From: Ottowia thiooxydans DSM 14619
GTDB taxonomy: Bacteria > Pseudomonadota > Gammaproteobacteria > Burkholderiales > Burkholderiaceae_C
Reading direction: 5' to 3'
NCBI RefSeq assembly: GCF_000422885.1
Contig: NZ_AUGX01000011.1
Span: 62,001 to 126,000 of the forward strand
DNA: 64,000 nt
The notes below the pieces were generated by a model. The model saw nothing but the letters and a program-made list of their open reading frames with translations. It searched no databases and was not told the origin of the DNA. Shown here piece by piece: positions 13,054 through 59,105 of this stretch. Each line of letters opens with the position of its first letter. The stretch's first letter is position 1. The position numbers and the translations under genes are program-made.

Positions 13054-14505
13054 CTACAGCAATGGCGAGGCCAGCCGCGCCACAGCTTCAAAGAGCCGCT
13101 GTGGTGCAGGTGCGCGGCGCTGCGGATGCACCCGTTTGCAGTCCGAGAGGTCCTGTTCGAACATCGCTGCCAATTGTTGGTTGAAATCAGCGCCGAACAC
13201 GGCAGCCGCTACTTCGAAGTTGAGCCTGAAGCTGCGGTTGTCGAAGTTGGCGGATCCCACCATGCCGTAATACTGGTCAATCAATAATGTCTTGGCGTGG
13301 AACATGCGCCCTGTGTATTCAAACACCAATACACCCGCATTTTGAAGTTCCTCGAAATACGAGCGCGCAGCTGCGGTGACTACCCTTGAATCGCTTTTCT
13401 CGGGCACCATCAGCTTGACCGAAACTCCCCTTAGCGCTGCGTTGGTCAGCGCCATCAGTGCAGACTCCGTGGGCACGAAATAGGGCGTGGCAAGCCATAT
13501 CCGTTCCCTTGCCATATGGATGGCATCGATCATGGCGCGGTGGATGGCTTCACTGTCGTTGTCGGGCCCGGAGGCCACGATATGCACGTGCACCGAGCCA
13601 GGTTTGTCATCGGGCAGCATGTCCTCATCCGTGATCTGCCGGCCTCCTGCATAACCCCAGTCTTGCAGGAACAGGTATTGCAGCCACCTTACGGCGCCGC
13701 CGCGCAGCAGAAGATGAGTGTCGCGGTAGGCCTCTTTGGGGCGCACACGTTCGTTCTCGTCATCTGTAATGTTGATGCCGCCCAGCAGGCCTGCGCGCCC
13801 GTCAATGATGGCGATCTTGCGGTGCGTGCGCAGGTTGACCAGGGGTCTAAGACGGTCCAGCTTACGTGGGTGGAAGATCGCGAACTGCCCGCCCGCCTTG
13901 AGGTAATCAGCCAAAAACCTGTTCCCGCTGCGCGAGCAAAGTCTTGACGAGCCGATCGCATCAACCAACAGCCGTACCCGTACACCTTCTCGCGCCTTGG
14001 TAGCCAGCGCCTGTAGCACGGCCTGCCCCGTAATATCAGGCTCAAAAATGTAGTATTCCAGGTGGATATGCTTTTGCGCGGCAGAGATCTCTTGCAGCAG
14101 CGTATCCAGCGTGGTGGCTCCGCTGGGTAAGAGTTTGACTTCCTGGCAACTCGCCAGTTGAAGGCCACAGCTGCGCTCGATCAATTCAGCATGCTGAAGC
14201 GCCCAGATGGGAGGTTCAGGCCGGTCTTTGCGCAGGGTTTTTAGATCTTCCTGGGACATCAACGCCGCCCGCTTGTGCCAGCGTTTGAGTCGCTGCCGCT
14301 TGACACGCTGCGGGCCAAAATACGCGTAAACCGCCAAGCCCACAACGGGCAGGAGGTTCAGCGTGATGATCCACGCCAAAGTGGACACCGGTGCGCGGCG
14401 CTGCATCACGATCCAGGTCGTCAGCACAAGGCTTGATAGCGTCCATATCCACCCGAGCCAGTAGGTCCAGGCGTGGCCAGCGATCGTCCATTCGGACAGG
14501 TTCAT
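13054..14505 (-). CDS. cls: Cardiolipin synthase (phospholipase D family)
   Basis: A 483-residue membrane enzyme. Two N-terminal transmembrane helices (about 14-34 and 41-62) match the PLDc_N region. Two HKD motifs follow, HRKIAIIDG at about 228 and HAKTLLIDQ at about 403, each with downstream GGxN/GSxN elements (LLGGINI, VGSANFDNRSF). It joins two phosphatidylglycerol molecules, or a phosphatidyl donor and alcohol, to make cardiolipin at the inner membrane. Length and layout fit ClsA. It lies 18 bases downstream of the ArsC-like gene on the same strand, so the two may be cotranscribed. Confidence 0.9.
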   Translation of the reverse strand: MNLSEWTIAGHAWTYWLGWIWTLSSLVLTTWIVMQRRAPVSTLAWIITLNLLPVVGLAVYAYFGPQRVKRQRLKRWHKRAALMSQEDLKTLRKDRPEPPIWALQHAELIERSCGLQLASCQEVKLLPSGATTLDTLLQEISAAQKHIHLEYYIFEPDITGQAVLQALATKAREGVRVRLLVDAIGSSRLCSRSGNRFLADYLKAGGQFAIFHPRKLDRLRPLVNLRTHRKIAIIDGRAGLLGGINITDDENERVRPKEAYRDTHLLLRGGAVRWLQYLFLQDWGYAGGRQITDEDMLPDDKPGSVHVHIVASGPDNDSEAIHRAMIDAIHMARERIWLATPYFVPTESALMALTNAALRGVSVKLMVPEKSDSRVVTAAARSYFEELQNAGVLVFEYTGRMFHAKTLLIDQYYGMVGSANFDNRSFRLNFEVAAAVFGADFNQQLAAMFEQDLSDCKRVHPQRRAPAPQRLFEAVARLASPLL

Positions 14506-27046: not shown

Positions 27047-28009
27047 ATGAATATCGCCAAAGCCCTCTGTGTCGCCACCGCTGCGGTACTTTCTACCACC
27101 TGCCTGCAAGCTCAAGAGAGCTTTCCCAAGCGCACGGTGACCTTCGTGGTTCCTTTCGCCGCGAGCGGGGCCACCGACCACCTGGCGCGGGTGTTGGGTC
27201 TCAAATTGTCAAAAATTTGGGGGCAGGCTGTAGTCATAGAAAACCGCGCTGGCGGGGGGACCATCATTGGCACGCAATTGGTTAGCAAGGCCCCAGCCGA
27301 TGGCTACACCTTGCTATTCACCTCCTACGGCTTCACGGCCAACTCGGTGCTGCGCAAGAACTTGCCTTACGCCAGCAACGCGTTTCGTCCGGTCGCAAGG
27401 GTGGCCACCGGGTACAACGTGCTGATGGTGACCAATCGTCTGAAGGACAAGTCGCTCAAAGAGCTGATTGCGAATTCCAAGACCCAGTCCGGTGGTCTGT
27501 CGATCAGCTCGTCCGGTTTGGGCTCCAGCCCACACATCGCGGCAGAGTTCTTCTCCAAGCTGACCGGCACTACCTACACGCACGTTCCCTACAAGGGGCA
27601 AGGACCGGCCATGGTCGATCTGACCGCAGGGGTGGTGGACGCCATGTTCGACGGCATGTCTTCGTATTCGCACGTCAAGAGTGGTTATGTCGGTGCCGTG
27701 GCAATTGCTGCGCCGCAGCGGCATCCCGACGCGCCAGAGATCCCAACCTTCAAGGAGCTGGGAGTCGATTTTGTCGCGGGCTCCTGGTTCGGCATGCTGG
27801 CACCAGCCGGAACGCCAGACAGCGTTGTCGCAAAGATCAATGCCGACATGCAACTTGCCTTGCAGGACGAAGAGGTGAAAGCGCAGATGGTGAAAACCGG
27901 TGCGAGCATCGGGATCACCTCGTCTGAGGCCTTTGGGCAATTCCTGAACCAGGAGGCGACCCGGTTGCAAAACCTTGTGAACCAGGGCGCCAAGATCGAC
28001 CTGAACTGA
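27047..28009 (+). CDS. Bug/TctC-family periplasmic solute receptor
   Basis: A 320-residue receptor, third gene of the IclR-linked operon. The signal peptide MNIAKALCVATAAVLSTT ends near LQAQ. Mature motifs are FPKRTVTFVVPFAASGATD, VVIENRAGGGTIIG, APADGYTLLF, THVPYKGQGPAMVDL and ITSSEAFGQFL. AAAGGAACACC precedes ATG 27047. It probably binds the acid that the adjacent CoA-transferase activates. No membrane transporter subunits are present nearby. Confidence 0.93.
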   Translation: MNIAKALCVATAAVLSTTCLQAQESFPKRTVTFVVPFAASGATDHLARVLGLKLSKIWGQAVVIENRAGGGTIIGTQLVSKAPADGYTLLFTSYGFTANSVLRKNLPYASNAFRPVARVATGYNVLMVTNRLKDKSLKELIANSKTQSGGLSISSSGLGSSPHIAAEFFSKLTGTTYTHVPYKGQGPAMVDLTAGVVDAMFDGMSSYSHVKSGYVGAVAIAAPQRHPDAPEIPTFKELGVDFVAGSWFGMLAPAGTPDSVVAKINADMQLALQDEEVKAQMVKTGASIGITSSEAFGQFLNQEATRLQNLVNQGAKIDLN

Positions 28010-29622: not shown

Positions 29623-30609
29623 TCAGTCCGCCTTTAGCTTGACCGCTTGAAACACTCGCTGCAGCCGCTGCGCTTCGGCGTTGTAGAAGGTCTGCGCTTG
29701 TTTAAGGGGCATGGCGCGCGTGAGGGCCACGCCACCCGCGTCGCGTGTGTAGGCGCCGAACTCAGGCCCTTGCAAGGCGGTGTCGATGGCTTTGTGCACC
29801 GCCGCCACCACCTCGGTGGGCGTCTGACGAGGCAGGAACACGCCGGTCCACACGGTGTATACGAAGTCCTTCAGGCCGCTCAGTTCGCTCAGGCGCGGAA
29901 GGCCGACCATTGGGGTGTCGGCGGTATGGGCCAGGGCGCGCAGCGTGCCAGCTTCGATCTGCTTTGCGGTGCTGCCGGCCATGGGCAGGAAGGCCAGGTC
30001 AACCTGACCACCGATCAGGTCGTTGACGGCCGGTGCCAGGCCTTTGTAGGGCACGTGGATCAACTGTGCGCCGGTCAGAGACTTGAAGTGCTCGCCCATG
30101 AGGTGGTAGAGCGTGCCGCTGCCTGGCGTGGCGTAGCTAAGGGGCTTGCTGGCTGGGTTTTTCAGGTAATCCAGCAGCGCCTGCGCCGAATGGATCTGCA
30201 GGCTGGGCCGAACGACGAGCGCGATGTGGGTGTACGAGAGCTGCGAGACCAGCACAAGGTCCTCGGGTTTGTAGCGCACACTGGGCATGGTCAACGGCGG
30301 CAGGATGGGCTCGGCGACGGTGGTGAGCAGCATGGTGTGGCCGTCGGCCGGCGCAGCCAGCACCTTGCCCACGCCTATGGCGCCGCCGACACCGGCGAAG
30401 TTTTCGACGATCACGGTCTCGCCCAGGGCCTTCTGCATCAGCGGTTGCATGACGCGAGCCACCATGTCGGCCGGGCCTCCGGCCGGGAAGGGCACCACAA
30501 CGGAGATGCGACGAGAGGGGAACGCGCCTTGTGCGCTGGTCAGCGGGGCGAGGGTGCTCAGGGCCGGCGCCAGAGCGGCGGCCAGCAGGGAACGGCGGGC
30601 GATCTTCAT
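29623..30609 (-). CDS. Bug/TctC-family periplasmic solute receptor
   Basis: A 328-residue receptor. The signal peptide MKIARRSLLAAALAPALSTL ends near TSAQ. FPSRRISVVVPFPAGGPADM, VIVENFAGVGGAIGVG, APADGHTMLL, HVPYKGLAPAVNDLIGG and LPRLSEL are Bug motifs. GGAGACAAGACACC precedes ATG 30609. The reading frame continues far upstream into the amidohydrolase gene, but that part is a shadow. It is 41 bases downstream of the amidohydrolase gene on the same strand and probably in one operon with it. Confidence 0.92.
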   Translation of the reverse strand: MKIARRSLLAAALAPALSTLAPLTSAQGAFPSRRISVVVPFPAGGPADMVARVMQPLMQKALGETVIVENFAGVGGAIGVGKVLAAPADGHTMLLTTVAEPILPPLTMPSVRYKPEDLVLVSQLSYTHIALVVRPSLQIHSAQALLDYLKNPASKPLSYATPGSGTLYHLMGEHFKSLTGAQLIHVPYKGLAPAVNDLIGGQVDLAFLPMAGSTAKQIEAGTLRALAHTADTPMVGLPRLSELSGLKDFVYTVWTGVFLPRQTPTEVVAAVHKAIDTALQGPEFGAYTRDAGGVALTRAMPLKQAQTFYNAEAQRLQRVFQAVKLKAD

Positions 30610-30650
30610 GGTGTCTTGTCTCCGGGTGTTGTAGTTGGGCACCGGGGTGC

Positions 30651-31595
30651 TCAGGCGGCGGCCTTGGTGGGCGTCGCGGTGCGGTGCTGCTTGCTCTGGT
30701 CGATGCGGTAGAGGCGTGTGGCGTTGCCGCCAAGGATGAGTTCCAGCGCGTGGTCGGGGATCTCGGGCATGTCCAGCGCGCGGGCGTGTTCGTTGATGTT
30801 CTGCACGGTCTTGTGGAAGGTCCACATGAAGGGGTTTTCCGAACCGTAGAGCAGACGCTCCCAGGGGTTGACGCAACCGAAGTCGTGGATCAGCTGATAG
30901 ACGGTACGCGGATGGTAAAAGCCCAGCGCACTGAGATCGGCGTGAAAGTTGGGGTTGCGCGCAACCACACCCATGGCCTCGGCCGCATAGGGGTAGCCCA
31001 GGTGGCAAATGACGACCTTCATCTTGGGAAAGCGCTGGCCCACTTCGTCGAGCAGCCAAGGTTGCTGTAGTTTCATGTCTGCGCCGCAGACGGGGGTGAA
31101 CCCCATGTGGAAGTGCACCGGCACGCCGAGCGCCGTGGCGGCTTCGTACAGCGGCTCGCAGGTCTTGTCGCGTGGGTCGAAGTGTGCGTAGGTGGGGTAG
31201 AGCTTGATGCCTCGGAAGTCGTGGTCGCGCACGCAGCGTTCCAGTTCGTCGGCCGCGCCCCATGGGTCAATGATTGGGTCTGCGCTGCAGATACCGATGA
31301 GCCGGCCGTTGGAGGCCTTGACCTGTTGGGCTACGAACTCGTTGGGCACGTTATAGGGGCGCTGTTCGGGCGGCAGCACGCGGTTCCAGTTGCCGGCCAG
31401 TACGCAGCACACGTCGATGCCCACATCGTCCATGACCTGAACGAGCATTTCGCCGTCGCGACGTTCGGACTTCACCTCGCTGCTGTGGTAGCGAAACCCG
31501 CGATCGCTCCAGTTCTTGCGCAGCTCGTTGTAGATGTGCTGCGAGACGTGAACACCGGGCTGACCCAGGTGAATGTGGTTGTCGACGACGAACAT
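30651..31595 (-). CDS. Amidohydrolase-family (TIM-barrel metal-dependent) hydrolase
   Basis: A 314-residue protein from ATG 31595, chosen because AGGAG lies just upstream. It begins FVVDNHIHLGQPG with the metal-binding HxH. KLYPTYAHFDPRD, PVHFHMGFTPVCG, VVICHLGYPYAAEAMG and LLYGSENPFMWTF follow the amidohydrolase_2 (ACMSD-like) pattern, in which decarboxylases and hydrolases of aromatic or lactone acids are found. It heads a two-gene unit with a Bug receptor and is divergent from a MarR regulator. The exact reaction is not readable. Confidence 0.85.
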   Translation of the reverse strand: MFVVDNHIHLGQPGVHVSQHIYNELRKNWSDRGFRYHSSEVKSERRDGEMLVQVMDDVGIDVCCVLAGNWNRVLPPEQRPYNVPNEFVAQQVKASNGRLIGICSADPIIDPWGAADELERCVRDHDFRGIKLYPTYAHFDPRDKTCEPLYEAATALGVPVHFHMGFTPVCGADMKLQQPWLLDEVGQRFPKMKVVICHLGYPYAAEAMGVVARNPNFHADLSALGFYHPRTVYQLIHDFGCVNPWERLLYGSENPFMWTFHKTVQNINEHARALDMPEIPDHALELILGGNATRLYRIDQSKQHRTATPTKAAA

Positions 31596-31637
31596 GCGGT
31601 CTCCTGAATGATGTTGCGTCAAAGTGTAGTTATCAAA

Positions 31638-31655
31638 TAGTTCGATGTCAAACTA
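31638..31655. promoter_or_regulatory. Candidate MarR operator
   Basis: TAGTTCGATGTCAAACTA is an 18-base dyad with seven of nine positions symmetric. It lies midway between the divergent amidohydrolase and MarR genes, the standard place for a MarR site. Confidence 0.5.
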
Positions 31656-31702
31656 ATAGATGGAGATGCATGTGGGGGTGCGTGCTATCCTGCCAGCTGC
31701 CA

Positions 31703-32143
31703 ATGTCTGATTTCACCCCTCCTTCTTCTCCCGCGCTCGACTCATATATCGGGTACCACCTCCGAAAAGCCCACAATCAGGCGCTACGCCGGTTGGACCT
31801 CGCGCTGGGCAAGCTGCAACTGACGACCGCCATGTATGGCGTGCTGGAGTTGTTGAGTTGCCATGTGGAGTTGGCGCAGGGACAATTGGCGCGGGGCGTG
31901 GGGCTGACCAACCCGTCTATGGTGCCGCTGGCGGACAAGCTGGCCGAGCGTGGCCTGATCGACCGCACCCGCCAGGAGCACGACCGACGCATGGTGCACC
32001 TGAAGCTCACGCCCGAAGGGCGCAAGTGCTGGAGCCGCGCCTCGCGCATTGTGCGCGAGCACGAGGAGGCGTTGCGCGGCGCGCTCTCCGATGCAGAGAC
32101 TGCTGAATTAATCCGGCTGCTGGGCAAGATCACCGGGGAGTGA
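31703..32143 (+). CDS. MarR-family transcriptional regulator
   Basis: A 146-residue winged-helix regulator. YHLRKAHNQALRRLDLAL, LAQGQLARGVGLTNPSMVPLA (in two parts, recognition region), LIDRTRQEHDRRMVHLKLT (the wing with the DxR motif) and LTPEGRKCW are typical. ATG 31703 (MSDFTPPSS) is preferred to an upstream in-frame start at 31670. It is divergent from the amidohydrolase-Bug pair with a candidate operator between, so it is probably their repressor, released by an aromatic acid or pathway compound. Confidence 0.88.
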   Translation: MSDFTPPSSPALDSYIGYHLRKAHNQALRRLDLALGKLQLTTAMYGVLELLSCHVELAQGQLARGVGLTNPSMVPLADKLAERGLIDRTRQEHDRRMVHLKLTPEGRKCWSRASRIVREHEEALRGALSDAETAELIRLLGKITGE

Positions 32144-32266
32144 ACAGAAGCCCCCCCGCGCCGCTACGCGGCTACTGTATCTATGCCTTCGTAGATTGGC
32201 CGAATGTTGCGTGACAACGGCCGGCGGCACCACGGGCGCCATCAGAGCCTGAGTCAGCCGCAAAAA

Positions 32267-32302
32267 CCTGATAGCAGCGAGCGATCAGGATAGCTGATCG
32301 CT
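32267..32302 (+). promoter_or_regulatory. LysR-type box upstream of pobA, overlapping a second dyad
   Basis: CCTGAT (32267-32272), 11 bases, ATCAGG (32284-32289) is a perfect T-N11-A LysR-type box. It overlaps AGCGATCA-N7-TGATCGCT at 32280-32302. The 14 bases GCGATCAGGATAGC at 32281-32294 recur exactly at 40075-40088 in front of the LysR gene. It lies about 75 bases upstream of the pobA start, suited to activation. Confidence 0.75.
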
Positions 32303-32363
32303 GGCTCCTCAAAGGTCGTTGTTGTCCCTAGGATGGCAACTATCTACACGGAAACCGCTGCAA

Positions 32364-33545
32364 ATGAAAACCCTAGTGACGATCATCGGCGCGGGGCCAG
32401 CCGGCATGTTGCTCTCCGAAATCCTCGCACGACAAAAGATCGACAGCATCGTCGTCGAGAGGCAAAGTCGGGACTATGTCAAATCCAGGATCCGCGCCGG
32501 CGTCCTTGAACAAACCACAGTGGACGTGCTGCGTGAGAACGGGCTAGCCGATCGGCTGGATAGTGAGGGGCATGTCCATGATGGGATGAAGATTGTCTGG
32601 GCAGGAAAGGAGAGCTTCTTCATCGACGTCAAAAAACACGTCGACAAGCAGTTTGTGGCCTATGGCCAAACAAGCATCCAGGAGGACCTTTTCGCCGCAG
32701 CGAACCGGCGCGATGCGCGAATCGTCTTCAATGCTGAGGATGTGAAGCTACACGACGTTCAGTCGAAGAAGCCGTCTGTGAGCTTCTTCAGCAACGGTGA
32801 AAGGGTGAGCATAGAAACAGACTTCATCGCGGGATGCGACGGCTTCCATGGTGTGTCTCGCCAAGCCATCCCACACGACGTACTGAAGGAGTACGAGAAG
32901 GTCTATCCGTTCGGGTGGCTTGGTATCTTGACAGAGCGGCCCCCGTTGCCGGACATCGTCTATGCGAACCATCCGCGTGGATTCGCTCTGGCATCCATGA
33001 GAAGTCCCACCTTGAGTCGCTATTACATCCAGGTACCGCTCGATGCACAGCTCGTCGAATGGACCGATGAGAGATTCTGGGAAGAGCTCAGGTCTCGATT
33101 TCCGCCGGAGATGGCGCGAGCTATTGTTGAAGGCCCATCGATTGAGAAGTCGATTGCACCCCTTCGCAGCTATGTGGCCGAACCTATGAGCTACGGAAGC
33201 CTTTTCCTCGCTGGTGACTCGGCTCACATCGTTCCCCCGACTGGGGCGAAAGGTCTCAATCTCGCAGTCTCGGACGTGTTTTATCTGAGTCGTGCGCTGA
33301 CCTCCTTCTACAAGACGGGCAATGAAGCGTTGCTGGATGAATACAGCGCGACGGCGTTGCGGCGGGTGTGGCATTCAGTGCGTACCTCCTGGTACCTGAC
33401 GAACTTGTTGCACCGATTCCCTACTGCGAACCAATTTGACCAAAAAGCACAGGAGTACGAGCTCGAATTCCTCAGATCGTCAGCGAGCGCGCAAGCGGCT
33501 CTGGCGGAGCAGTACGCTGGCCTTCCACTGGAGGAACTGAAATGA
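32364..33545 (+). CDS. pobA: 4-Hydroxybenzoate 3-monooxygenase
   Basis: A 393-residue single-component flavin hydroxylase, the usual PobA length. FAD fold: TIIGAGPAGMLLSEIL. The stretch RDYVKSRIRAGVLEQTTVDV is a PobA signature, DFIAGCDGFHGVSR follows, and FLAGDSAHIVPPTGAKGLNL is the second FAD motif. It converts 4-hydroxybenzoate to protocatechuate with NAD(P)H and O2. ATG 32364 fits the family N-terminus. It is first in the operon pobA-ligA-ligB-bug-rdhA; its stop overlaps the ligA start (ATGA). A relative acting directly on a halogenated 4-hydroxybenzoate cannot be excluded. Confidence 0.9.
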   Translation: MKTLVTIIGAGPAGMLLSEILARQKIDSIVVERQSRDYVKSRIRAGVLEQTTVDVLRENGLADRLDSEGHVHDGMKIVWAGKESFFIDVKKHVDKQFVAYGQTSIQEDLFAAANRRDARIVFNAEDVKLHDVQSKKPSVSFFSNGERVSIETDFIAGCDGFHGVSRQAIPHDVLKEYEKVYPFGWLGILTERPPLPDIVYANHPRGFALASMRSPTLSRYYIQVPLDAQLVEWTDERFWEELRSRFPPEMARAIVEGPSIEKSIAPLRSYVAEPMSYGSLFLAGDSAHIVPPTGAKGLNLAVSDVFYLSRALTSFYKTGNEALLDEYSATALRRVWHSVRTSWYLTNLLHRFPTANQFDQKAQEYELEFLRSSASAQAALAEQYAGLPLEELK

Positions 33546-33955
33546 ATCAACCACTCAGGGACTACAACGATATCCCGGGAACGTACGTCTTCGACGGCCT
33601 GCATCAGCGCCGCGGCTACTGGTTGAATACCTTCTGCAAGTCGCTTGACCACGCAGGAAACAGAGACGCGTTCAGGGCGAACCCGGCGACATACGTTGAG
33701 AAATTTCCGATGACGCCTGAGCAACGCGAAGCCGTTCGAGAAAGAGACTGGCTGGCCATGCTCCGGCTGGGGGGCAATATCTACTACACCTTCAAGCTCG
33801 CCATCTTCGACGGGTTGTCGATGCAGCACGTAGGTGCAGCGATGAATGGAAGCAAGATGACCGTTGAGGAGTTCCGCTCGATGATGGTGATGGGCGGCAG
33901 GCCGATCGATGGGATGCGCAGTCGGCGCGAGAACAGGGCGCGGGACCATGGCTAA
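33542..33955 (+). CDS. ligA: Protocatechuate 4,5-dioxygenase alpha subunit
   Basis: A 137-residue small subunit of the extradiol dioxygenase LigAB. DIPGTYVFDGLHQRRGYWLN, FCKSLDHAGNRDAF and VRERDWLAMLRLGGNIYYT (cap-forming helices) match LigA (about 139 residues). The start overlaps the pobA stop by four bases and the end overlaps ligB by eight bases, indicating translational coupling. Together with LigB it cleaves protocatechuate to 4-carboxy-2-hydroxymuconate semialdehyde. Later genes of the 4,5-pathway (ligC, I, J, K, U) are not in this window. Confidence 0.92.
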   Translation: MNQPLRDYNDIPGTYVFDGLHQRRGYWLNTFCKSLDHAGNRDAFRANPATYVEKFPMTPEQREAVRERDWLAMLRLGGNIYYTFKLAIFDGLSMQHVGAAMNGSKMTVEEFRSMMVMGGRPIDGMRSRRENRARDHG

Positions 33956-34811
33956 GGTTGTCGGTGGAGTTGGTACCTCTCACGTACCCGCCATCGGCGC
34001 AGCCGTCGATGGCGGCAGGACAGGCGATCCCTACTGGAAACCAGTCTTTGACGGGATGCAGGCGGCGCGCGATTGGATCGCCGAGGTCAAACCCGACGTC
34101 TGCATCATCGTGTACAACGACCACGCGTCCTGCTTTTCGTTGAACCTGACGCCGACCTTCGCGCTCGGCGTCGCCGAGAGCTTCCAGCCGCACGACGAGG
34201 GCTACGGTCCGCGGCCCGTGCCCGTGGTGAGAGGCGCACCCGATCTGGCCTGGCACCTTGCCGAGCAACTCATCCTGAGTGAGTTCGACATCACCATCGT
34301 TTCTGAAATGACGGTGGACCATGGACTGACGGTGCCGCTGTCGGTGCTGTTTGGCCAACCAGCCGAATGGCCGTGCCGCGTCATTCCGTTGTGCGTGAAT
34401 GTCATTCAGTACCCGCCGCCGACAGGAAATCGATGCCTGAACCTGGGAAAGGCCATCAGGTCCGCGCTGGAAAGCTTCCCGGAGGAGTTGAAGGTAGCAG
34501 TCCTCGGCACGGGTGGGTTGTCGCATCAACTGCAGGGCGAGCGTGCGGGCCTGATCAATGTGGAGTTCGACAACGCGTGGCTGGATGCGTTTGTAGACCG
34601 TCCGGCCACGGTCGCGTCCATGTCCCATCTCGAGGTGTTGAGAGAAGCGGGCTCAGAGGGGCTGGAGTGCGTCATGTGGCTCGTCATGCGCGGAGCACTG
34701 AATGAGGATGTGGATGTCCACCATCGGTTCTATCACGTCCCGGCGTCCAACACGGCCTACGGGCTTCTCGTTCTGGAGGACGCCAAGAATCCGGCGTCGC
34801 CAGGACGCTAA
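33948..34811 (+). CDS. ligB: Protocatechuate 4,5-dioxygenase beta (catalytic) subunit
   Basis: A 287-residue class III extradiol dioxygenase. GGVGTSHVPAIG gives iron ligand His12, IIVYNDHASCF the second His (about 59), and SHLEVLREAGSEGLE the likely Glu ligand. GTGGLSHQLQGER contains the catalytic His. ATG 33948 overlaps the end of ligA. It performs Fe(II)-dependent meta-cleavage of protocatechuate, consistent with pobA upstream. Gallate or a halogenated protocatechuate are alternatives that sequence alone cannot exclude. Confidence 0.92.
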   Translation: MAKVVGGVGTSHVPAIGAAVDGGRTGDPYWKPVFDGMQAARDWIAEVKPDVCIIVYNDHASCFSLNLTPTFALGVAESFQPHDEGYGPRPVPVVRGAPDLAWHLAEQLILSEFDITIVSEMTVDHGLTVPLSVLFGQPAEWPCRVIPLCVNVIQYPPPTGNRCLNLGKAIRSALESFPEELKVAVLGTGGLSHQLQGERAGLINVEFDNAWLDAFVDRPATVASMSHLEVLREAGSEGLECVMWLVMRGALNEDVDVHHRFYHVPASNTAYGLLVLEDAKNPASPGR

Positions 34812-34849
34812 TGGAATAGCGAACACCACAAGAACACCGGAGACAAGTC

Positions 34850-35842
34850 ATGACCGTTCCCTACCCCAGTATCAGCCGTCGCGTTTTGATCGCATGCTTG
34901 GTTCCGCTGTCAATGCACGCATGGCACGCCACGGCTTGGGCGTCCGGCGACTGGCCATCCAAGCCGATCAAGCTGATTGTCGCGTTCCCGCCTGGGAGTT
35001 CACCGGATGTTATCGGGCGTGCTCTCGCCCCCGGATTGGCGGAAGCCCTGAAACAACCCGTTGTCGTGGAAAACAGAACGGGCGTCACGGGAATGATCGC
35101 CGCCGAGTTCGTCGCCCGATCACCGGCAGATGGCTACACCTTTCTCATGACCTCAGGTAGCTCCGTGACGATTTCGGTGCACACGCTTGCGAAAGTGCCG
35201 ATCGATCCCTCGAAAGATCTCGTGCCCGTGGCGAGCACCGCTCGAATCGAGCTTTTCCTGGTGAGCGACGCACGGCAGGAATTCAAGTCCTTTGCTGAGC
35301 TTGTGGCGACGGCAAAGGCGCGGCCCGGCAGCCTTTCGTATGCCAGTCCTGGCAACGGCAGTGCACCTCATGTGGCGGCGGAGATGATGAAGGCTCAATC
35401 GGGCATGACCGCCGTGCATATTCCATATCGCGGCGCGTCGCCTGCGCTTCAGGACCTGCTTGGAGGGAGCGTCCAGTTTGCTTTTGACCCCGGAATTGCT
35501 CTCGAGCATGTCAGGGCGGGAAAGCTTCGCTTACTGGCTGTTGGCAGCACGAAGCGATCACCGTTGTTCCCCGGCACACCCACGCTGCAGGAACTCGGAC
35601 TGAATGGATTCGACTCCGGAACTACCCATGCGATCTACGCTCCGGCAAAAACGCCGGTAGAGATCGTGGAGCGCATGAACGCGGAAATCAACACGCTGTT
35701 GGCAAGTCCTCACGTCACCAAGATCATTCGAAATCTTGGCGCCGAGCCGACTCCTCTCAGCCCCGCGGAGCTCGCAGATCAGCTGCGCCGCGATAGCGCC
35801 CGCTACGCCGAGATCGTGAAGCTTCGTGGGATCAAGGAATAG
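34850..35842 (+). CDS. Bug-family solute receptor of the dehalogenation operon
   Basis: A 330-residue receptor. The signal peptide spans about residues 1-32 (SRRVLIACLVPLSMHAW, cleavage near AWAS). WPSKPIKLIVAFPPGSSPD, VVVENRTGVTGMIAAEF, SPADGYTFLM and VHIPYRGASPALQDLLGG are Bug hallmarks. GGAGACAAGTC precedes ATG 34850. It sits 38 bases after ligB and 15 bases before rdhA, so all five genes form one operon. The comparable bhb locus of Comamonas, as I recall it, also pairs a Bug-type receptor with a fused dehalogenase. Binding of a halogenated hydroxybenzoate is inference. Confidence 0.93.
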   Translation: MTVPYPSISRRVLIACLVPLSMHAWHATAWASGDWPSKPIKLIVAFPPGSSPDVIGRALAPGLAEALKQPVVVENRTGVTGMIAAEFVARSPADGYTFLMTSGSSVTISVHTLAKVPIDPSKDLVPVASTARIELFLVSDARQEFKSFAELVATAKARPGSLSYASPGNGSAPHVAAEMMKAQSGMTAVHIPYRGASPALQDLLGGSVQFAFDPGIALEHVRAGKLRLLAVGSTKRSPLFPGTPTLQELGLNGFDSGTTHAIYAPAKTPVEIVERMNAEINTLLASPHVTKIIRNLGAEPTPLSPAELADQLRRDSARYAEIVKLRGIKE

Positions 35843-35857
35843 CCACGAAAGCTGCAG

Positions 35858-38800
35858 ATGCGAATTTTTTCCCACACACAACGCGCCGTGCATGACGGTG
35901 CATACCCCAGTGAACGGCTTTCGCGCAGAGCGGGCTCAAGCACCCAGCCACCGATCCGAGAGACGGGCGCCCTGCAACCCCCCGCGTCAAACGAATTGGA
36001 ATTCACGCTGGCAGATTCCGTCAGCAGATTCATGTGCGCTCTCGACCAAGTGAGGGAAGGAGACCACAACAAGGAACTAGGTGAAATTCCATCGGATGCA
36101 ATGGAACGCGCACGCCATCTGAAGTCAGCTGCGTACTTCCTCGACACTTCAATTGCCGGCGTCAGCGAACTCAAACGCGAGCATTTGCTCGATCTCCGTA
36201 TCGAGCATCCCACGTTTCGCACGGCAACATACGAGCAATCCGAGACCAAGCTCCGGCTTCGCTTCAACCCGAACGCCGTTTTGCGACAGATGAAGCGGTC
36301 GATGGACCTGTGCGAGCAGGGCGTCGAGCATCACACGCACGCGCTTGTTTTGATGGTCGAGTTTCCTCGCGATCCCCAGGCCGGGGAGCCAGGAGCAGAC
36401 TGGATCGTGGGAATGCAGCAATGGCGCGCCGCGCTGAGGGCAGCTGAAACAGCCGCGGTCCTGGCCAACTACATTCGCATTCTCGGCTTTAGCGCCAGGA
36501 GCCACACGGCGACAACGACCGACGTGAACCTGCTCAGGCTCGCGGTGTCGTCCGGTCTGGCGCGTTCCGAACAAGGACGTATCTTGAACCCGTTTGTGGG
36601 TGACAGATTCGCGCTCGCAGCAGTGACGACGGATATGGCACTTGATCCGGACCTGCCGCTGGCTCCGCCATCCTTTCTGGAGTCCTTTAGGGCGAAGGGT
36701 CCGAGCTGGTGGCTGGGCTCGTCGAGCCCAAAGAATAAGTGGAATTTCCGTGAGTTTGGCGCGCGGGAATATCGGAACAGCCGCTTTCCGGTCGAAACCC
36801 TCAAGCGGGTCGAGGAGACAACGACCTTTATCGACGAGGCGCGCATTCCGCGCGTTCCGAAAAGCAGCGAATTCTTCCTGCGTGCGGCGTTTGGCGATCT
36901 CGGAAAAGCTCCCCAGGAAGCCTCAAAGGACGGCTATTCCGTAGCTAAGGCACCCCTGGCGGCGGCTCTAAGACTTGCACTGAACGTCTATTCGGTGCTT
37001 CAGCGAGGCGAGCCCGCGAAGCGCAAGCTTGCGTTTCCAGATCGCAAGAACAATGCGGACTTGGTCAAGGCAACCCTGCACTTTCTTGGCGCGGACATTG
37101 CGGGCGTTTCGCGCGCACCCGATTGGGTCTGGTATTCGCATCGCCAGGACGGCACGGAGATGCCGGTGGCGCATCCCTTTGCAGCTACGGTGATGATTGA
37201 CCAGGGCTTCGATACCATGGAAGGCGCGTCCGGTGACGACTGGATTTCAAGCGCGCAATCCATGCGAACCTACATGCGTGCGGGCTTGGTGTGTAGCGTT
37301 CTTGCCGATCACCTTAGACGCCTTGGATACGACGCCACGGCTCATTCTGCGGCAGACAGTGACGTTATACAGACACCACTCGTTCTGCTGGCGGGCCTTG
37401 GAGAGGTGAGCCGGATCGGCGAGACCATCCTCAATCCGTTCCTTGGTCCAAGAAGCAAGACGGGGGTCATGACCACGGATTTCCCCATCGAGCCGGACAA
37501 GGCCATCGACTTTGGGCTGCAGAATTTCTGCGAATCTTGCAACAAGTGTGCGCGCGAGTGTCCCTCAGGCGCCATCTCGGCCGGACCGAAAGTGATGTTC
37601 AACGGCTACGAGATCTGGAAGGCCGACGTCGAGAAATGTACGCGGTACCGGATGACGAATCTGGCAGGCTCAATGTGCGGTCGATGCATGAAAGCTTGCC
37701 CATGGAATCTTGCCGGACTTGTTCAGGAAAAGCCCTTTAGGTGGGCTGCGATGCATATTCCCGTGGCCGCCCAGTGGCTGGCAAAGCTTGACGACTACCT
37801 CAATCGGGGGGAGATCAATCCCAGGAAAAAATGGTGGTGGGACATCACGACCGAGCGCAACGGTAGCGTGGTCGCCGCGAAGGAAGTGAACGTCCGGGGC
37901 CTCAACAAGCATATTCGGCTGAAGTATGAAGACCAGACGCTCGCCGCCTACCCGGCCCCCCTCGCTCCTCTGCCATTGCCCATGCCGAGCAGAGTTGATC
38001 GCGAAGCAGGTATAGAGGCGTACAAGAATCTCCCGACACCAGACGCGTACAAAGCGCGCATCGCTTCCGGTGACACGGACAATTTGGTTCCAGGTTTGCG
38101 GCGCCTTACCGAAGAGCCACCTGTCGTCGTCGCAAAAGTCAGTCGACGCTGGGCAAGCTCGAAAGATGGAAAAATTGACCTCTTCGAGATTGTCTCTGCG
38201 CACGGATTGCCGTTGCCAAAGTTCGATGCAGGCGCGCACGTCGACGTGACGATTACGCCCGAGTTCATTCGGCAGTTCAGCCTGGCCGGAGATCCCGCTG
38301 ATCGCACCAAGTATGTACTTGGCATTCTGAGGGAGGATCAAGGCCGGGGTGGCTCCTTGAAAATCCACCAGATGCTTCGACCTGGGGTTCCAGTAGTCGT
38401 CTCCACGCCCAGAAACCATTTCCCGGTGATGCGGGAGGCACGCCGGCATCTTCTTCTGGCCGGGGGAATTGGGGTCACTCCGCTGATTGCGATGGGGCAT
38501 GAACTCTATACCGCCGGTAAAGACTTTGTCCTGTACTACAAAGCGAAGACACGAGCACAGGCCGCTTTCATTCAGGAACTCGAGTCAGTAGCATGGTCGA
38601 ATCGCGTCCACTTTCACTTCAGCGATGAGCGGCGGTTGGATATTGCAGATGTGCTGCGCGAGTATGTTCCTGGCGATCACGTCTACACCTGTGGTCCAGC
38701 TGCATTTATGGATGCTGTGTTTGACACGGCTACCACCTTCGGATGGGACGAAAGCTCCTTGCATCGAGAGTACTTCTCCGTGCCTGAGATGGACGAGCGG

Positions 38801-39073
38801 GAAAAGCTCCCGTTCAAGCTGCGTCTGGGCAGCACAGGCCAAATCATTCCTGTGAGCGCTACGCAAAACGCCGTGCAGGCGCTCGCTAGCGCGGGCCTTC
38901 AAGTAGACGTGAAATGCAGTGATGGTCTCTGCGGCGTCTGCGCAGTTCCCTATCTCTCAGGCGATGTAGATCATCGCGATTTTGTTCTTAGCAAGGAGCA
39001 GCGCAAGGTGAAGATGATTACGTGCTGCTCCCGAGCAGCCACAGCCGACGGCGAGATCGTCCTGAATCTCTAG
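35858..39073 (+). CDS. Self-sufficient catabolic reductive dehalogenase (BhbA-like)
   Basis: A 1071-residue fusion. Residues ~50-270 and ~350-550 look like two copies of the dehalogenase fold (compare RILNPFVGDRFALAAVTTD with ILNPFLGPRSKTGVMTTD). Two ferredoxin-type clusters follow: CESCNKCARECP (Cys 558, 561, 564, 568) and CGRCMKACPW (607, 610, 614) with Cys594. From ~745 a ferredoxin-reductase module carries RQFSLAG (FAD), LLLAGGIGVTPL and YTCGPAAFMD (NAD(P)H). The C-terminus binds [2Fe-2S] through Cys 1020, 1025, 1028 and 1056. No Tat signal and no rdhB anchor gene are seen, so it is cytoplasmic. Corrinoid-dependent, NAD(P)H-driven removal of halogen is known for this architecture. WYSH at 425-428 may hold the catalytic Tyr. 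Start choice is uncertain. Confidence 0.93.
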   Translation: MRIFSHTQRAVHDGAYPSERLSRRAGSSTQPPIRETGALQPPASNELEFTLADSVSRFMCALDQVREGDHNKELGEIPSDAMERARHLKSAAYFLDTSIAGVSELKREHLLDLRIEHPTFRTATYEQSETKLRLRFNPNAVLRQMKRSMDLCEQGVEHHTHALVLMVEFPRDPQAGEPGADWIVGMQQWRAALRAAETAAVLANYIRILGFSARSHTATTTDVNLLRLAVSSGLARSEQGRILNPFVGDRFALAAVTTDMALDPDLPLAPPSFLESFRAKGPSWWLGSSSPKNKWNFREFGAREYRNSRFPVETLKRVEETTTFIDEARIPRVPKSSEFFLRAAFGDLGKAPQEASKDGYSVAKAPLAAALRLALNVYSVLQRGEPAKRKLAFPDRKNNADLVKATLHFLGADIAGVSRAPDWVWYSHRQDGTEMPVAHPFAATVMIDQGFDTMEGASGDDWISSAQSMRTYMRAGLVCSVLADHLRRLGYDATAHSAADSDVIQTPLVLLAGLGEVSRIGETILNPFLGPRSKTGVMTTDFPIEPDKAIDFGLQNFCESCNKCARECPSGAISAGPKVMFNGYEIWKADVEKCTRYRMTNLAGSMCGRCMKACPWNLAGLVQEKPFRWAAMHIPVAAQWLAKLDDYLNRGEINPRKKWWWDITTERNGSVVAAKEVNVRGLNKHIRLKYEDQTLAAYPAPLAPLPLPMPSRVDREAGIEAYKNLPTPDAYKARIASGDTDNLVPGLRRLTEEPPVVVAKVSRRWASSKDGKIDLFEIVSAHGLPLPKFDAGAHVDVTITPEFIRQFSLAGDPADRTKYVLGILREDQGRGGSLKIHQMLRPGVPVVVSTPRNHFPVMREARRHLLLAGGIGVTPLIAMGHELYTAGKDFVLYYKAKTRAQAAFIQELESVAWSNRVHFHFSDERRLDIADVLREYVPGDHVYTCGPAAFMDAVFDTATTFGWDESSLHREYFSVPEMDEREKLPFKLRLGSTGQIIPVSATQNAVQALASAGLQVDVKCSDGLCGVCAVPYLSGDVDHRDFVLSKEQRKVKMITCCSRAATADGEIVLNL

Positions 39074-39081
39074 TCCTTGCC

Positions 39082-39101
39082 CTGTCATCGATCGGTGACA
39101 G
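39082..39101. terminator. Hairpin between convergent rdhA and LysR gene
   Basis: CTGTCAT (39082-39088) pairs with GTGACAG (39095-39101, one G-U) around CGATCG. There is no T-run, so it is only a possible terminator. It sits between two convergent genes. Confidence 0.35.
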
Positions 39102-39148
39102 CCGCGGCCACGTTTCCTGACCCTTCAGCGCGCAGCAAACCGTCAGCA

Positions 39149-40051
39149 CTAATCACGCATTAGGACTCGTGACATCGACTCGCACATGGCGGCAAAAGCT
39201 GACGCTGGTCTTGAAAGGGGCAAATCGGCGCGATAGATGAGTGCGTTGGACGATCCGTGAAAACGTTCCTGGATGTCCATGGCGCGGATGTTGCTGCCCA
39301 AAAGCCCCTTTTCAACAAGTCTGGAGGGTGCCAATGCCAACCAATCTGTGGAGCCTACAAGCGCAGCAAGTTGAGTGAACGATTCGCATGTTGCAGCAAC
39401 GGCAGGGGCCGCGAGCTCATTCTCATCATAGACTCGCATGATGGAGCTTCCAGGTCCACCAGGTGGTCCCAGGAGAATCCATTCTGCACTCGTGAGTTCC
39501 TTTAGCGATGTGGCCTCGGCCAGGGGATGTTCGTTCCGACAGACTACCTGCAACTGGCTATCGAAAAGATGCCTCATTATCAGACCCGGTGCGACCCCTT
39601 GGTCTGGCACTGCAGTGATTGCGATCTCAATTTCGCTCCGCTGAAGTGCTGGTTGCAGTTGCTGATGAAAGCCGATCCGCAGATGCAGTCTCACGGAGGG
39701 AAGGGCGCGGTGAAAATGCGGTGCGACTAGTGGAAGAAATACTGCGGTCGGAGTGGGCCCAAGTCCAACGTACAGCGGGCCGTCGATGTTATCGCTGGAC
39801 ACCCGGAGCTCTGATTCAGCAATAGCGGCTTCCCGTAGGATCATGCGCGCACGTGGAAGTAGCTTCTCGCCATGAGGAGTGAGGCGCAAACCGCGGGTCG
39901 ATCGTTCTATGAGTTGTACACCGAGTCCGGATTCAAGTGCCTGGAGACTCCCAGTGAGGCCCGCCTGGGAAACGCCAAGTTGCGCAGAAGCCCTTCTGAA
40001 GCTCCCGTGATCAAGAACTTCGACAAAGGCCTTCAGCTGCTGGAGTGTCAT
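39149..40051 (-). CDS. LysR-family regulator, probable controller of the dehalogenation operon
   Basis: A 300-residue LysR-type regulator. The N-terminal helix-turn-helix is MTLQQLKAFVEVLDHGSFRR plus SQAGLTGSLQALESGLGVQL, followed by the linker helix and an effector domain with LGLGPTPTAVFLPLVAPHF-like strands. It is convergent with rdhA. Ten bases separate its ATG from CTGAT-N11-ATCAG, a LysR-type box whose 14-base core is repeated upstream of pobA. It therefore probably regulates both itself (repression by blocking its own start region) and the pobA-rdhA operon. The inducer is unknown. Confidence 0.9.
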   Translation of the reverse strand: MTLQQLKAFVEVLDHGSFRRASAQLGVSQAGLTGSLQALESGLGVQLIERSTRGLRLTPHGEKLLPRARMILREAAIAESELRVSSDNIDGPLYVGLGPTPTAVFLPLVAPHFHRALPSVRLHLRIGFHQQLQPALQRSEIEIAITAVPDQGVAPGLIMRHLFDSQLQVVCRNEHPLAEATSLKELTSAEWILLGPPGGPGSSIMRVYDENELAAPAVAATCESFTQLAALVGSTDWLALAPSRLVEKGLLGSNIRAMDIQERFHGSSNALIYRADLPLSRPASAFAAMCESMSRVLMRD

Positions 40052-40061
40052 GCTTCATCCT

Positions 40062-40082
40062 CTGATCGATTAATGCGATCAG
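40062..40082. promoter_or_regulatory. LysR-type box in front of the LysR gene
   Basis: CTGAT (40062-40066), 11 bases, ATCAG (40078-40082) is a perfect T-N11-A dyad ten bases upstream of the LysR ATG. It also reads CTGATCG-N7-CGATCAG. The core GCGATCAGGATAGC (40075-40088) is shared with the pobA upstream region. Confidence 0.75.
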
Positions 40083-40137
40083 GATAGCCGAGAACGTCTT
40101 GAGTTACGTCCATGCGTTCCCTAAGCTCACTCACTTA

Positions 40138-41127
40138 TTATTCCAGTTTGATGTTCGCCTCCCGGACCAGATCGGCCCAGAGTTTGGTATCTACCGCGAT
40201 CATGTCCGCCAGTTTTTTGGGCGTGCTGCCGAAAACTTCGTAACCCTGGCCGGCCAGCTTGGCGCTGATGTCAGGATCTTTCAGAATGGTGACGATCAGG
40301 CTGCTGAGCTTTTGGACAATCTCTGGCGGGGTTTTGGCCGGTGCCAGGACACCGAACCAGGAGGTGACGTCGTAACCCGGAACACCGCTGCTCGCAATGG
40401 TGGGGACCTGGGGAGCCAGCGGGCTCTTGTCCAGGCCGGTAGTGCCCAGCAGCTTGATGTTGCTGGCACGGGCGTGGGGCAACGTAGTGGCCGGGAGATC
40501 AAACATCATCGAGATATTCCCGCCCATCACATCCGTCATCGCTGCCGCATTGCCTTTGTAGGGCACATGCATGAGGTCAATGCCTGCCATTTTCTTTAGC
40601 AGCTCGCCAGACAAATGATTGGAGGTGCCGTTGCCGGCCGAACCGAAGGAGAGTTTGCCGGGGTTGCGTTTGGCATAACTGATCAGTTCGCTAACGGAGT
40701 TGAACGGCAACTTTGGGTTGACCGCCAGAAACATGGTGTAGGAGCCGGCGCTGGAGACAGGTGCGAAGTCCTTGACCTGATATGGCAACTTGGGATTGAG
40801 GGATGGGTTGACGACCAGGGCTGCGCTGGCGGTAAACAGCAGGGTGTAGCCGTCCGCCGGCGACTTGGCGACATAGTCCACACCCAGAATGCTGCCGGCC
40901 CCCGGTTTGTTTTCAATGATGACAGGCTGGCCCAGGCTCTCCTGCATGCGCTGGCCCAGTGAGCGCGCCAGCTGGTCGGTTGGACCACCGCTGGCATAAG
41001 GCACAACCAGCCGGATCACGCGGTTGGGGTAGGTGTCGGTCTGTGCGTGGGCGAAAGGCAGCGCGAGCGCGGCGAGGCCGGTCACGCACAAAAGGCGGCG
41101 CATCTTGCGAAATGTCAGGGGTGTCAT
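40138..41127 (-). CDS. Bug/TctC-family periplasmic solute receptor
   Basis: A 329-residue receptor. ATG 41127 (MTPLTFRKMRRLL) is chosen because GGAGAC lies seven bases before it; an in-frame ATG at 41139 lacks such a site. The signal peptide ends near AHAQ. YPNRVIRLVVPYASGGPTDQ, VIIENKPGAGSILGVDY, SPADGYTLLF and LMHVPYKGNAAAMTDVMGG are Bug motifs. It is 49 bases downstream of the AidB-like acyl-CoA dehydrogenase gene on the same strand, and likely brings in the acid handled by that gene cluster. Confidence 0.93.
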   Translation of the reverse strand: MTPLTFRKMRRLLCVTGLAALALPFAHAQTDTYPNRVIRLVVPYASGGPTDQLARSLGQRMQESLGQPVIIENKPGAGSILGVDYVAKSPADGYTLLFTASAALVVNPSLNPKLPYQVKDFAPVSSAGSYTMFLAVNPKLPFNSVSELISYAKRNPGKLSFGSAGNGTSNHLSGELLKKMAGIDLMHVPYKGNAAAMTDVMGGNISMMFDLPATTLPHARASNIKLLGTTGLDKSPLAPQVPTIASSGVPGYDVTSWFGVLAPAKTPPEIVQKLSSLIVTILKDPDISAKLAGQGYEVFGSTPKKLADMIAVDTKLWADLVREANIKLE

Positions 41128-41176
41128 CAGTGTCTCCATGAAGGGTTATTGTTGTCATCTGCCGCTTGCGCGGCGC

Positions 41177-42958
41177 TCAGCTGACCAGGGACTGGGCCAG
41201 TGCCAGCGACACGGGGTCGGACTGCAGCAGCAGCTTTTCTATTTCGTTGTCGCGTTGGACGTCTTTGACACCACTTTGCAGGCGGTGCAGCAAAACTTGC
41301 CGGCTGATCAACAGGCGGCGTGCGTCGCCGCCTTGTTGGCCGATACGGGCACCTTCACCCGCCAGCAGGGCGGCGGTGACAGCGTGGTACATGCGTGAGG
41401 CGGCCTCGCGGCTGTCCACTTCACCCTCCAGGGTTGCCGCGCTCTGGTCCATCAATGCCCGCGCTTCTTCGATCGCGGCGCTGAGGAGGTTCAGCAACGG
41501 AGCCGGAATGCCGAGTGACAGCCGCAGCCAGTCGGCCATCGATTCCGCCAGGGCGTTATGAGCGCCTTCCTTGCCTGCAGCGCGTTGCACTGCGTCAAGC
41601 GCGTTGATGTTGCTGGTGCCTTCCCACAACACCCCAATGTGCGAGTCGCGAACTAGGCGTTCGTTGACAAAATCCTCGATGTAGCCGTTTCCGCCACGAA
41701 CTTCCATCGCGCCAGTCGCCACCTTTACGTTGTCCCGGCAGGCGCGGAACTTGAACAGCGGCGTGAGCATGCGCAACTCCAGTTGCGCGCGCAGGTCTCC
41801 GCTGTCTGCGCGATGCATGACGTCGGCGGCATGTACAAACATGGACAAAGCCTGTTCCGTGGGCAGCAGCAGCTTCATCAGTTGGCGGCGGTGCAGGGGG
41901 TGGTCGATCAGGCGGCGGCGAAACGCGATGCGGTAGTTGGACACCACCATGGCCTCGTTCCAGCAGCGGCGCATCATCGCCGCCGCGCGCACGCCGTGCG
42001 ACAGGCGCGACAAGTTGACCTGGTCCAGCATCTGTTTGAGGCCCTGGTGGACATCTCCGACCAGATAGGCCACGGCACCCTCGAACAGCACCTCCCCGCT
42101 GGGCATGGAACGTGTGCCCATTTTGTCTTTCAGGCGTGCGATGCGGTAGGTGTTGCGGCTGCCGTCGTCGAGGTGGCGTGGCACGGCAAACAGTGCCAGT
42201 CCCTTGGTGCCGTCCGGGCCGTCCGCCGGCCTGGCCAGCACCAAGGCCACGTCGGCATCCACCGCCGAGCAAAACCATTTGTCGCCTGTCAGGCGCCAGT
42301 GCTGGCCATCATGCGCCGCCTGCAGCCGGTTGGTGCCAATGTCCGAGCCGCCGGTGCGCTCCGTCATGAACTGCGTGCCCTTGAGGATCTTGCTGGGGTC
42401 GGTGCTGGTCATACCCGGCAGGAAACGCGCCTTGAGTTCTTCGTCGCCATACCGCTCGATCAGAAAGGTCGAACTGTCGGTCACGCTGATTGGGCACATC
42501 AGGCCAAATTCAGCCTGCACAAACACATACTGGAAGGCGTATTTCGCCAGCGGCAGGTAACGTGTTGGCCAGCCCAGCACTCCTTTGGCGCGTGACATGG
42601 CATGGATGCCGAAATCGGTGTAGCCGATTTTTTCCATCTCGCGGTAAGCCGGGTGGTAGTCGACCCAGTCCTCGTCGGCGCCAAAGCGGGTGCGGGGGCG
42701 GAGCACGGGTTTGTTCTTGTCGGCGGCCATGGCCAGCTCGTCCAGTCGGCTGCCCGCGACTTGCCCCAGCTTGTGCAGGTGAGGGGTGATGAAGTCCAGC
42801 ACCTCGCTGGGCAAACGCAGCGCCAGCAGCTCGGAGAGGGCTGGATCAAGCGTATGGAAGTTCAGGCCACGACAGTCAGGGGCGACCAGTGTTTCCGCGG
42901 AAACTGCGCCCGCCCTGTCGAGCGCCGGCGCCTTGGGAGAACTAAATACAGAGGTCAC
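41177..42958 (-). CDS. Long acyl-CoA dehydrogenase, AidB-like subfamily
   Basis: A 593-residue protein, about 200 residues longer than ordinary acyl-CoA dehydrogenases. DWVDYHPAYREMEKIGYTDF resembles the AidB N-terminal region. TQFMTERTGGSDIGTN and LTGDKWFCSAVDADVALVLA are FAD and substrate motifs, and VRGGNGYIEDFVNERLVRD leads to VLWEGTSNINALD with the catalytic Glu position. The C-terminal extension is helical. It is divergent from a CoA-transferase gene with an IclR-type palindrome in the gap, so it is probably coregulated in degradation of an imported acid. Real AidB (alkylation response) function is unlikely given the context. Confidence 0.88.
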   Translation of the reverse strand: MTSVFSSPKAPALDRAGAVSAETLVAPDCRGLNFHTLDPALSELLALRLPSEVLDFITPHLHKLGQVAGSRLDELAMAADKNKPVLRPRTRFGADEDWVDYHPAYREMEKIGYTDFGIHAMSRAKGVLGWPTRYLPLAKYAFQYVFVQAEFGLMCPISVTDSSTFLIERYGDEELKARFLPGMTSTDPSKILKGTQFMTERTGGSDIGTNRLQAAHDGQHWRLTGDKWFCSAVDADVALVLARPADGPDGTKGLALFAVPRHLDDGSRNTYRIARLKDKMGTRSMPSGEVLFEGAVAYLVGDVHQGLKQMLDQVNLSRLSHGVRAAAMMRRCWNEAMVVSNYRIAFRRRLIDHPLHRRQLMKLLLPTEQALSMFVHAADVMHRADSGDLRAQLELRMLTPLFKFRACRDNVKVATGAMEVRGGNGYIEDFVNERLVRDSHIGVLWEGTSNINALDAVQRAAGKEGAHNALAESMADWLRLSLGIPAPLLNLLSAAIEEARALMDQSAATLEGEVDSREAASRMYHAVTAALLAGEGARIGQQGGDARRLLISRQVLLHRLQSGVKDVQRDNEIEKLLLQSDPVSLALAQSLVS

Positions 42959-59023: not shown

Positions 59024-59105
59024 CACTCTTGCCGTCCCGAAGTCATCGCCACCAGATCTTCAGAGAGGGTGGGCGTGTACAAATTTGAAATCGTTGGAGA
59101 CAAAA

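Follow-up and report, generated by a model that had tools for sequence, protein, structure and literature searches.

An intact operon of the BhbA type in Ottowia thiooxydans, probably for aerobic breakdown of ortho-halogenated 4-hydroxybenzoates

Aerobic, self-contained reductive dehalogenases (RdhA) are of interest for the clean-up of brominated and chlorinated aromatics. The kind of system treated here is already known from a herbicide-degrading plasmid, pBHB of Comamonas sp. 7D-2, one of whose RdhA proteins (WP_015585978) is given the name BhbA in PMC10463259, which also names an RdhA from Ottowia thiooxydans. Pigmentiphaga kullae H8 degrades 3-bromo-4-hydroxybenzoate, with bromo-protocatechuate as intermediate, by means of the bhb1 operon (phbh1-pcaA-pcaB-orf404) with its PobA-LigAB-type genes and TsaR-like LysR regulator BhbR1; no rdhA is named in this operon (PMC12016517), and our comparison with it follows the published description. 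We analyzed a stretch of 64,000 nucleotides from O. thiooxydans DSM 14619 (assembly GCF_000422885.1, contig NZ_AUGX01000011.1, positions 62,001 to 126,000 of the forward strand; hereafter the window), in which pobA, ligA, ligB, bug and rdhA follow one another on the plus strand at 32364-39073 and a convergent lysR lies on the minus strand. From their sequences, these genes very probably form an intact BhbA-type operon by which an ortho-halogenated 4-hydroxybenzoate, probably with halogens at positions 3 and 5, is broken down in air. The copy in the window is unbroken and compact and has a likely regulator site, and so is easier to start from than the rearranged copies on the plasmid.

By sequence, the 1071-residue product of rdhA (35858-39073, plus strand) is a self-sufficient reductive dehalogenase of the BhbA kind, with a phthalate-dioxygenase-reductase-like end. 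It scores 202.7 bits on TIGR02486 (cut-off 160.35). Residues 158-738 match NpRdhA (PDB 4ras; phmmer E-value 9e-160) and comprise the catabolic core with its doubled cobalamin-binding fold, while the C-terminal end at 773-1069 matches 2pia (8e-59) and bears a 2Fe-2S motif (C1020-x4-C-x2-C...C). Two 4Fe-4S motifs are present (C558-x2-C-x2-C-x3-CP and C594...CGRCMKACP). The active-site residues listed for NpRdhA in PMC10463259 (F291, S422, M423, Y426, K488 and R552) correspond to F340, S468, M469, Y472, K534 and R598, positions that were counted by eye on the 4ras alignment and, for all except F340, also read out directly from the sequence; all six are invariant across 30 fused RdhA sequences. 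The best fold match of the predicted model is likewise NpRdhA 4ras (Foldseek template modelling score 0.87 over the target, 751 columns, about 40% identity). Catabolic fold and active site are alike in NpRdhA (4ras, 6zxu), which lacks the reductase that the window protein has, and in JtRdhA of Jhaorihella thermophila, in which the reductase is fused as in the window (PMC10463259).

Sequence comparison places the protein close to the plasmid enzymes. Within the plasmid collection, the second RdhA of pBHB comes nearest to it (92.5% identity), and it is 78% identical to BhbA itself; a single place covering at least 80% of the window RdhA occurs in only 8 of the 72,556 records of that collection. 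A tree of 30 fused RdhA proteins groups the window sequence with both pBHB copies, three proteins from Hydrogenophaga and one from Nitratireductor OM-1 in a seven-member clade with support of 100/100. Apart from this clade stand the remaining 23 proteins, of which 17 come from alphaproteobacterial records, one from a metagenome-assembled genome (MAG) of Granulosicoccus and five from the window's own family. The first-pass annotation had called RdhA fused, BhbA-like and free of a twin-arginine translocation (Tat) signal, and had proposed the alignment with BhbA and NpRdhA; the clade, the 2pia-like end and the retained active site bear this out, and a simple pattern check found no RR.F in the first 60 residues.

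The five plus-strand genes and the lysR stand where that annotation had placed them, with junctions of -4 (pobA/ligA), -8 (ligA/ligB), +38 (ligB/bug) and +15 bases (bug/rdhA). PobA (32364-33545), a predicted 4-hydroxybenzoate 3-monooxygenase, scores 572.1 bits on TIGR02360 (cut-off 538.7) and matches PDB 1pbb with an E-value of 4e-142. LigA (33542-33955), the predicted alpha subunit of protocatechuate 4,5-dioxygenase, matches 1b4u_A and scores 120.1 on TIGR02792 (cut-off 108.6), falling below the cut-offs of NF009917 (137.9 vs 173) and NF009918 (109.5 vs 161). The catalytic beta subunit would be encoded by ligB (33948-34811), whose ATG at 33948 accounts for the 8-base overlap with ligA; LigB scores 437.6 on NF009903 (cut-off 317), matches 1b4u_B with an E-value of 6e-118 and, in that alignment as read by eye, keeps H12, H61, H195 and E242 of Sphingobium LigB, which we take to be the catalytic positions. 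The product of bug (34850-35842) is a periplasmic receptor of the tripartite tricarboxylate transporter type (PF03401). The receptor family agrees with the uptake function proposed earlier, and uptake itself is suggested at the level of the family. The minus-strand lysR (39149-40051) encodes a putative TsaR/BhbR1-type regulator with TsaR (3fxq, E-value 3e-36) as its best PDB match.

Spacing and conserved order suggest that the five genes make up one transcription unit. Hydrogenophaga borbori LA-38, H. intermedia S1 and a Hydrogenophaga MAG (loci L011-L013) carry all five genes in the order and strand of the window, with proteins 69-83% identical, and the arrangement is therefore beyond chance; a lysR was not found in L012, whose stretch continues only a little past rdhA. 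On pBHB, cluster 1, which includes BhbA, has the same order, (pobA)-ligA-ligB-bug-rdhA, with LigB 81% and Bug 70% identical to the window proteins. The first-pass annotation had considered a hydroxylase, a ring-cleavage dioxygenase and a corrinoid enzyme in one string to be unusual. This was not supported, because the same string stands beside BhbA on pBHB and in the three Hydrogenophaga contigs. The combination is not unusual within the BhbA clade; among fused RdhA overall it is. A genome scan based on short peptide patterns, which can miss relatives, yielded 62 rdhA loci (some short, such as L022 with 5,660 bases), 29 of which extend to the reductase end; PobA, LigA and LigB lie near three of these 29 and near none of the other 33, and we rejected the operon as a general trait of fused RdhA on this count.

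A LysR-type site, TGATAG-N7-CGATCA, lies at 32269-32287 (plus strand), 95 bases before the pobA start, with a further TGATCG half-site beginning at 32295, and a palindromic one, TGATCG-N7-CGATCA, is found at 40063-40081, immediately before lysR. The two regions have an exact 14-mer in common (at 32281 and 40075). The pattern TGATMG-N7-CGATYR matches these two window sites three times over both strands (mean of 0.07 in 100 shuffles, none of which reaches three). Across the 7.05-Mb genome it occurs at six places, compared with a single match of a reversed control pattern. It is present in 8 of 108 loci, two of them the window's own places, and recurs ahead of pobA in each of the three Hydrogenophaga loci, before the pobA scar of pBHB, between lysR and pobA of a third pBHB gene set (cluster 3: lysR, pobA-ligA-ligB) and in L014. 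In sequence, the window site is close to the BhbR1 footprint of P. kullae H8, which includes TGATAG-N7-TTATCG (PMC12016517). LysR would be bound at 32269-32287 and at its own promoter and would activate the operon in response to a halogenated 4-hydroxybenzoate. As a side observation, in L095 (505-1501) the site sits between a divergent lysR (53% identical to the window's) and an rdhA (about 51%), in a 5.2-kb stretch in which PobA, LigA, LigB and Bug were not found.

On the same contig, about 86 kb away, we found matches to 4-oxalomesaconate hydratase (2gwg), LigK (TIGR02798), 2-pyrone-4,6-dicarboxylate hydrolase (4d8l), a LigAB fusion and PmdC (9azo), and the genome can plausibly complete the lower pathway of protocatechuate 4,5-cleavage. 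A cobalamin riboswitch is followed by genes for a receptor resembling BtuB, for proteins like BtuF and BtuC and for late cobalamin steps. The genome search proposed in the first-pass annotation thus turned up both lower-pathway and B12 uptake-type genes, and with the clade and the conserved residues these lend good support to the aerobic role that it had assigned.

Several observations weigh against this assignment. The RdhA model has a mean predicted local distance difference test (pLDDT) value of 75 and, apart from its ends, drops to 43-58 at residues 561-630, which include Fe-S cysteines and R598; the residue claims therefore rest on the sequence alignment. The BtuB, BtuF, BtuC and CobU matches fall below their NCBIfam cut-offs, and CbiC was not found in the genome by a search that was positive in 7 of 14 control genomes, so that B12 would come from salvage at best, and the corrinoid is probably salvaged. 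When up to two mismatches are allowed, the 14-mer still has two matches, a number reached by 11 of 100 shuffles; its weight lies in exactness and placement, not in count. The site pattern was drawn partly from these very sequences, and its shuffle figure is no independent test. The site is one base off in Comamonas sp. C11 and two off in L096, and it is absent in Nitratireductor OM-1, L094, L097 and L098 and from within 160 bases of lysR in both Hydrogenophaga loci looked at, whose LysR is only 47-48% identical to that of the window.

In the mechanism that we propose, Bug would bind a carboxylate in the periplasm, as its family suggests. RdhA, which would draw on NAD(P)H by way of its own flavin/2Fe-2S end, would swap a halogen ortho to the phenol group for hydrogen by means of a corrinoid and two 4Fe-4S clusters, as its close relatives indicate. 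PobA would then hydroxylate the freed ortho position, LigAB would open the ring, and the cleavage products would feed into the lower pathway of 4,5-cleavage, whose genes lie elsewhere on the contig. The operon poses a biochemical question, which the work of the H8 operon on the monobromo compound (PMC12016517) also raises, namely whether RdhA removes both halogens or only the first.

One answer, which we regard as possible while leaning slightly against it, is that RdhA frees a single ortho position of a 3,5-dihalo-4-hydroxybenzoate, PobA makes a halo-protocatechuate, and opening by LigAB expels the last halide, the product closing to 2-pyrone-4,6-dicarboxylate for PDC hydrolase. According to older biochemistry, LigAB can release halide from halo-protocatechuates; our literature search turned up no paper for this step, which counts against the reading. 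The presence of 2-pyrone-4,6-dicarboxylate (PDC) hydrolase on the same contig fits, as do the monobromo pathway of H8 and the response of its regulator: BhbR1 answers to 3-bromo-4-hydroxybenzoate and moderately to bromo-protocatechuate and the dibromo compound, with no notable response to 4-hydroxybenzoate (PMC12016517). JtRdhA, moreover, has a kcat/KM about 4-fold higher with a dibromo than with a monobromo substrate (PMC10463259), and Comamonas C11 has lysR with pobA-ligA-ligB-bug and no adjoining rdhA. The genome has further relatives of PobA (50% and 39% for the closest two) and of LigB (59% and 45%) that could serve ordinary 4-hydroxybenzoate and protocatechuate, and a private PobA-LigAB set needs a reason; given such relatives, its presence is suggestive of halogenated intermediates and no proof of them. 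On the other side, BhbA is reported to convert 3,5-dibromo-4-hydroxybenzoate to 4-hydroxybenzoate via the monobromo compound (PMC13101508).

In nature the operon might instead act mainly on some different ortho-halogenated phenol, such as a naturally occurring bromophenol carboxylate, with herbicide-type compounds incidental. Fused RdhA relatives do occur in many Roseobacter-type records, PMC13101508 likewise places bhbA homologs in Roseobacter-type bacteria, and JtRdhA is active on further brominated and iodinated phenols (PMC10463259), but the co-encoded PobA and LigAB suggest a 4-hydroxybenzoate skeleton, and we consider this alternative unlikely. That the cluster is decayed or silent and no longer used is highly improbable: the missing consensus promoter before pobA (a sigma-70-type scan gave no promoter-like site there, the sole one, with 1.9 expected, lying inside bug) and the absence of CbiC would agree with it, but every frame is open, none of the checked active-site residues is lost, the site on the promoter side is conserved, and the riboswitch leads into B12 uptake-type genes.

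The intact operon also makes the origin of the pBHB version testable. In cluster 1 of pBHB, pobA, unlike in the window, has lost its 5' third and matches from residue 117 onward only; an IS91-type transposase gene lies roughly 0.5 kb away from the break. Cluster 2 has a bug-rdhA pair like that of the window (Bug 87%), while its pobA-ligA-ligB is an out-of-frame scar: positions 13473-13655 of the plasmid stretch (L009) correspond to pobA codons 1-61 (87% to the window pobA), and 13651-13935 to the terminal part of ligB (84%), which is fused to the pobA piece in a different frame and lies directly before bug-rdhA. The DNA upstream of the scar also resembles the window, from window base 32280, and the scar is what would remain if about 2 kb had been deleted from within an operon of the window type. 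Directly after rdhA, where the window has lysR, cluster 2 carries genes for NAD(P) transhydrogenase subunits (L009 18292-21150), possibly for NADPH supply.

Gene-by-gene identity tables are concordant, grouping cluster 1 with Hydrogenophaga (PobA 86-92%, LigB 86-92%, Bug 76-86%, RdhA 83-91%; 86-92% to H. intermedia and 81-91% to H. borbori) and cluster 2 with the window (Bug 87%, RdhA 93%). We read the five-gene operon as the older unit and the two rdhA clusters of pBHB as broken copies that would derive from Hydrogenophaga-like and window-like lineages. On a plain reading of the sequences, pBHB appears to have taken up two versions of the operon and lost intact pobA from both, with the third set, lysR and pobA-ligA-ligB, remaining. 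Chen and co-workers reportedly described two functional rdh clusters on pBHB. The finding of two broken operon versions on the plasmid comes from the present work, and part of it may already be in print. Comamonas, BhbA, 7D-2 and TonB receive no mention in the review PMC6100074.

The Comamonas sp. C11 plasmid (L111 10945-15632) has lysR and pobA-ligA-ligB-bug as in the window, with proteins 54-72% identical, and no rdhA was found in its 25-kb stretch, which could make it an rdhA-free form of the unit. An IS1071 transposase gene lies about 3 kb beyond its bug. We tentatively suggest a scenario, somewhat short of probable, that starts from an older pobA-ligAB-bug unit under LysR control that served mono-halogenated 4-hydroxybenzoates, as in H8 and perhaps C11. 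With rdhA added at its end, RdhA would need to unblock only a single ortho position, and removal of the last halogen would fall to the oxygenases. pBHB would then have acquired two operons of this kind, each from a different lineage, with the pobA end broken in both, and would have kept a third, separate pobA-ligAB set.

Horizontal gain of the operon is still likely, because a convincing RdhA is missing from all 28 other genomes of the genus: three of the 29 searched match RdhA, namely the source genome and two whose matches span 120-167 residues with E-values of 9e-5 and 8e-4. Of these 29 genomes, 17, the source included, have a completeness of at least 90% and a contamination of no more than 5%. 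Among the 399 genomes of the family, 13 match: besides the source genome itself, seven do so at 48-52% and three at 46%, and two are borderline. Composition is weak evidence for such a gain: G+C at third codon positions is 0.54-0.76 in the six genes vs 0.75-0.83 in five measured neighbours, and many other open reading frames (ORFs) of the window have values of 0.6-0.7. A recent composite transposon was rejected, there being no long flanking repeats at 30000-42000, and no transposase occurs among the 20 ORFs outside the operon and lysR that the Pfam scan covered (two of them without any match). At 7.05 Mb the source genome is far larger than the 28 others, which measure 1.3-4.5 Mb, several of them being incomplete.

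At least five genes for Bug/TctC-type receptors lie in the window (27047-28009, 29623-30588, 34850-35842, 40138-41139 and 59085-60065), four called by Pfam and the one at 40138-41139 by 33-36% likeness to Bug-type places in L009-L013. An OsmC-family gene of pBHB (L009 7865-9073, minus strand) has the LysR-type site about 80 bases upstream (L009 9153-9171) and may belong to the same regulon; in Nitratireductor OM-1, too, an OsmC-family gene (L010 6971-8155) stands about 1.8 kb before rdhA.

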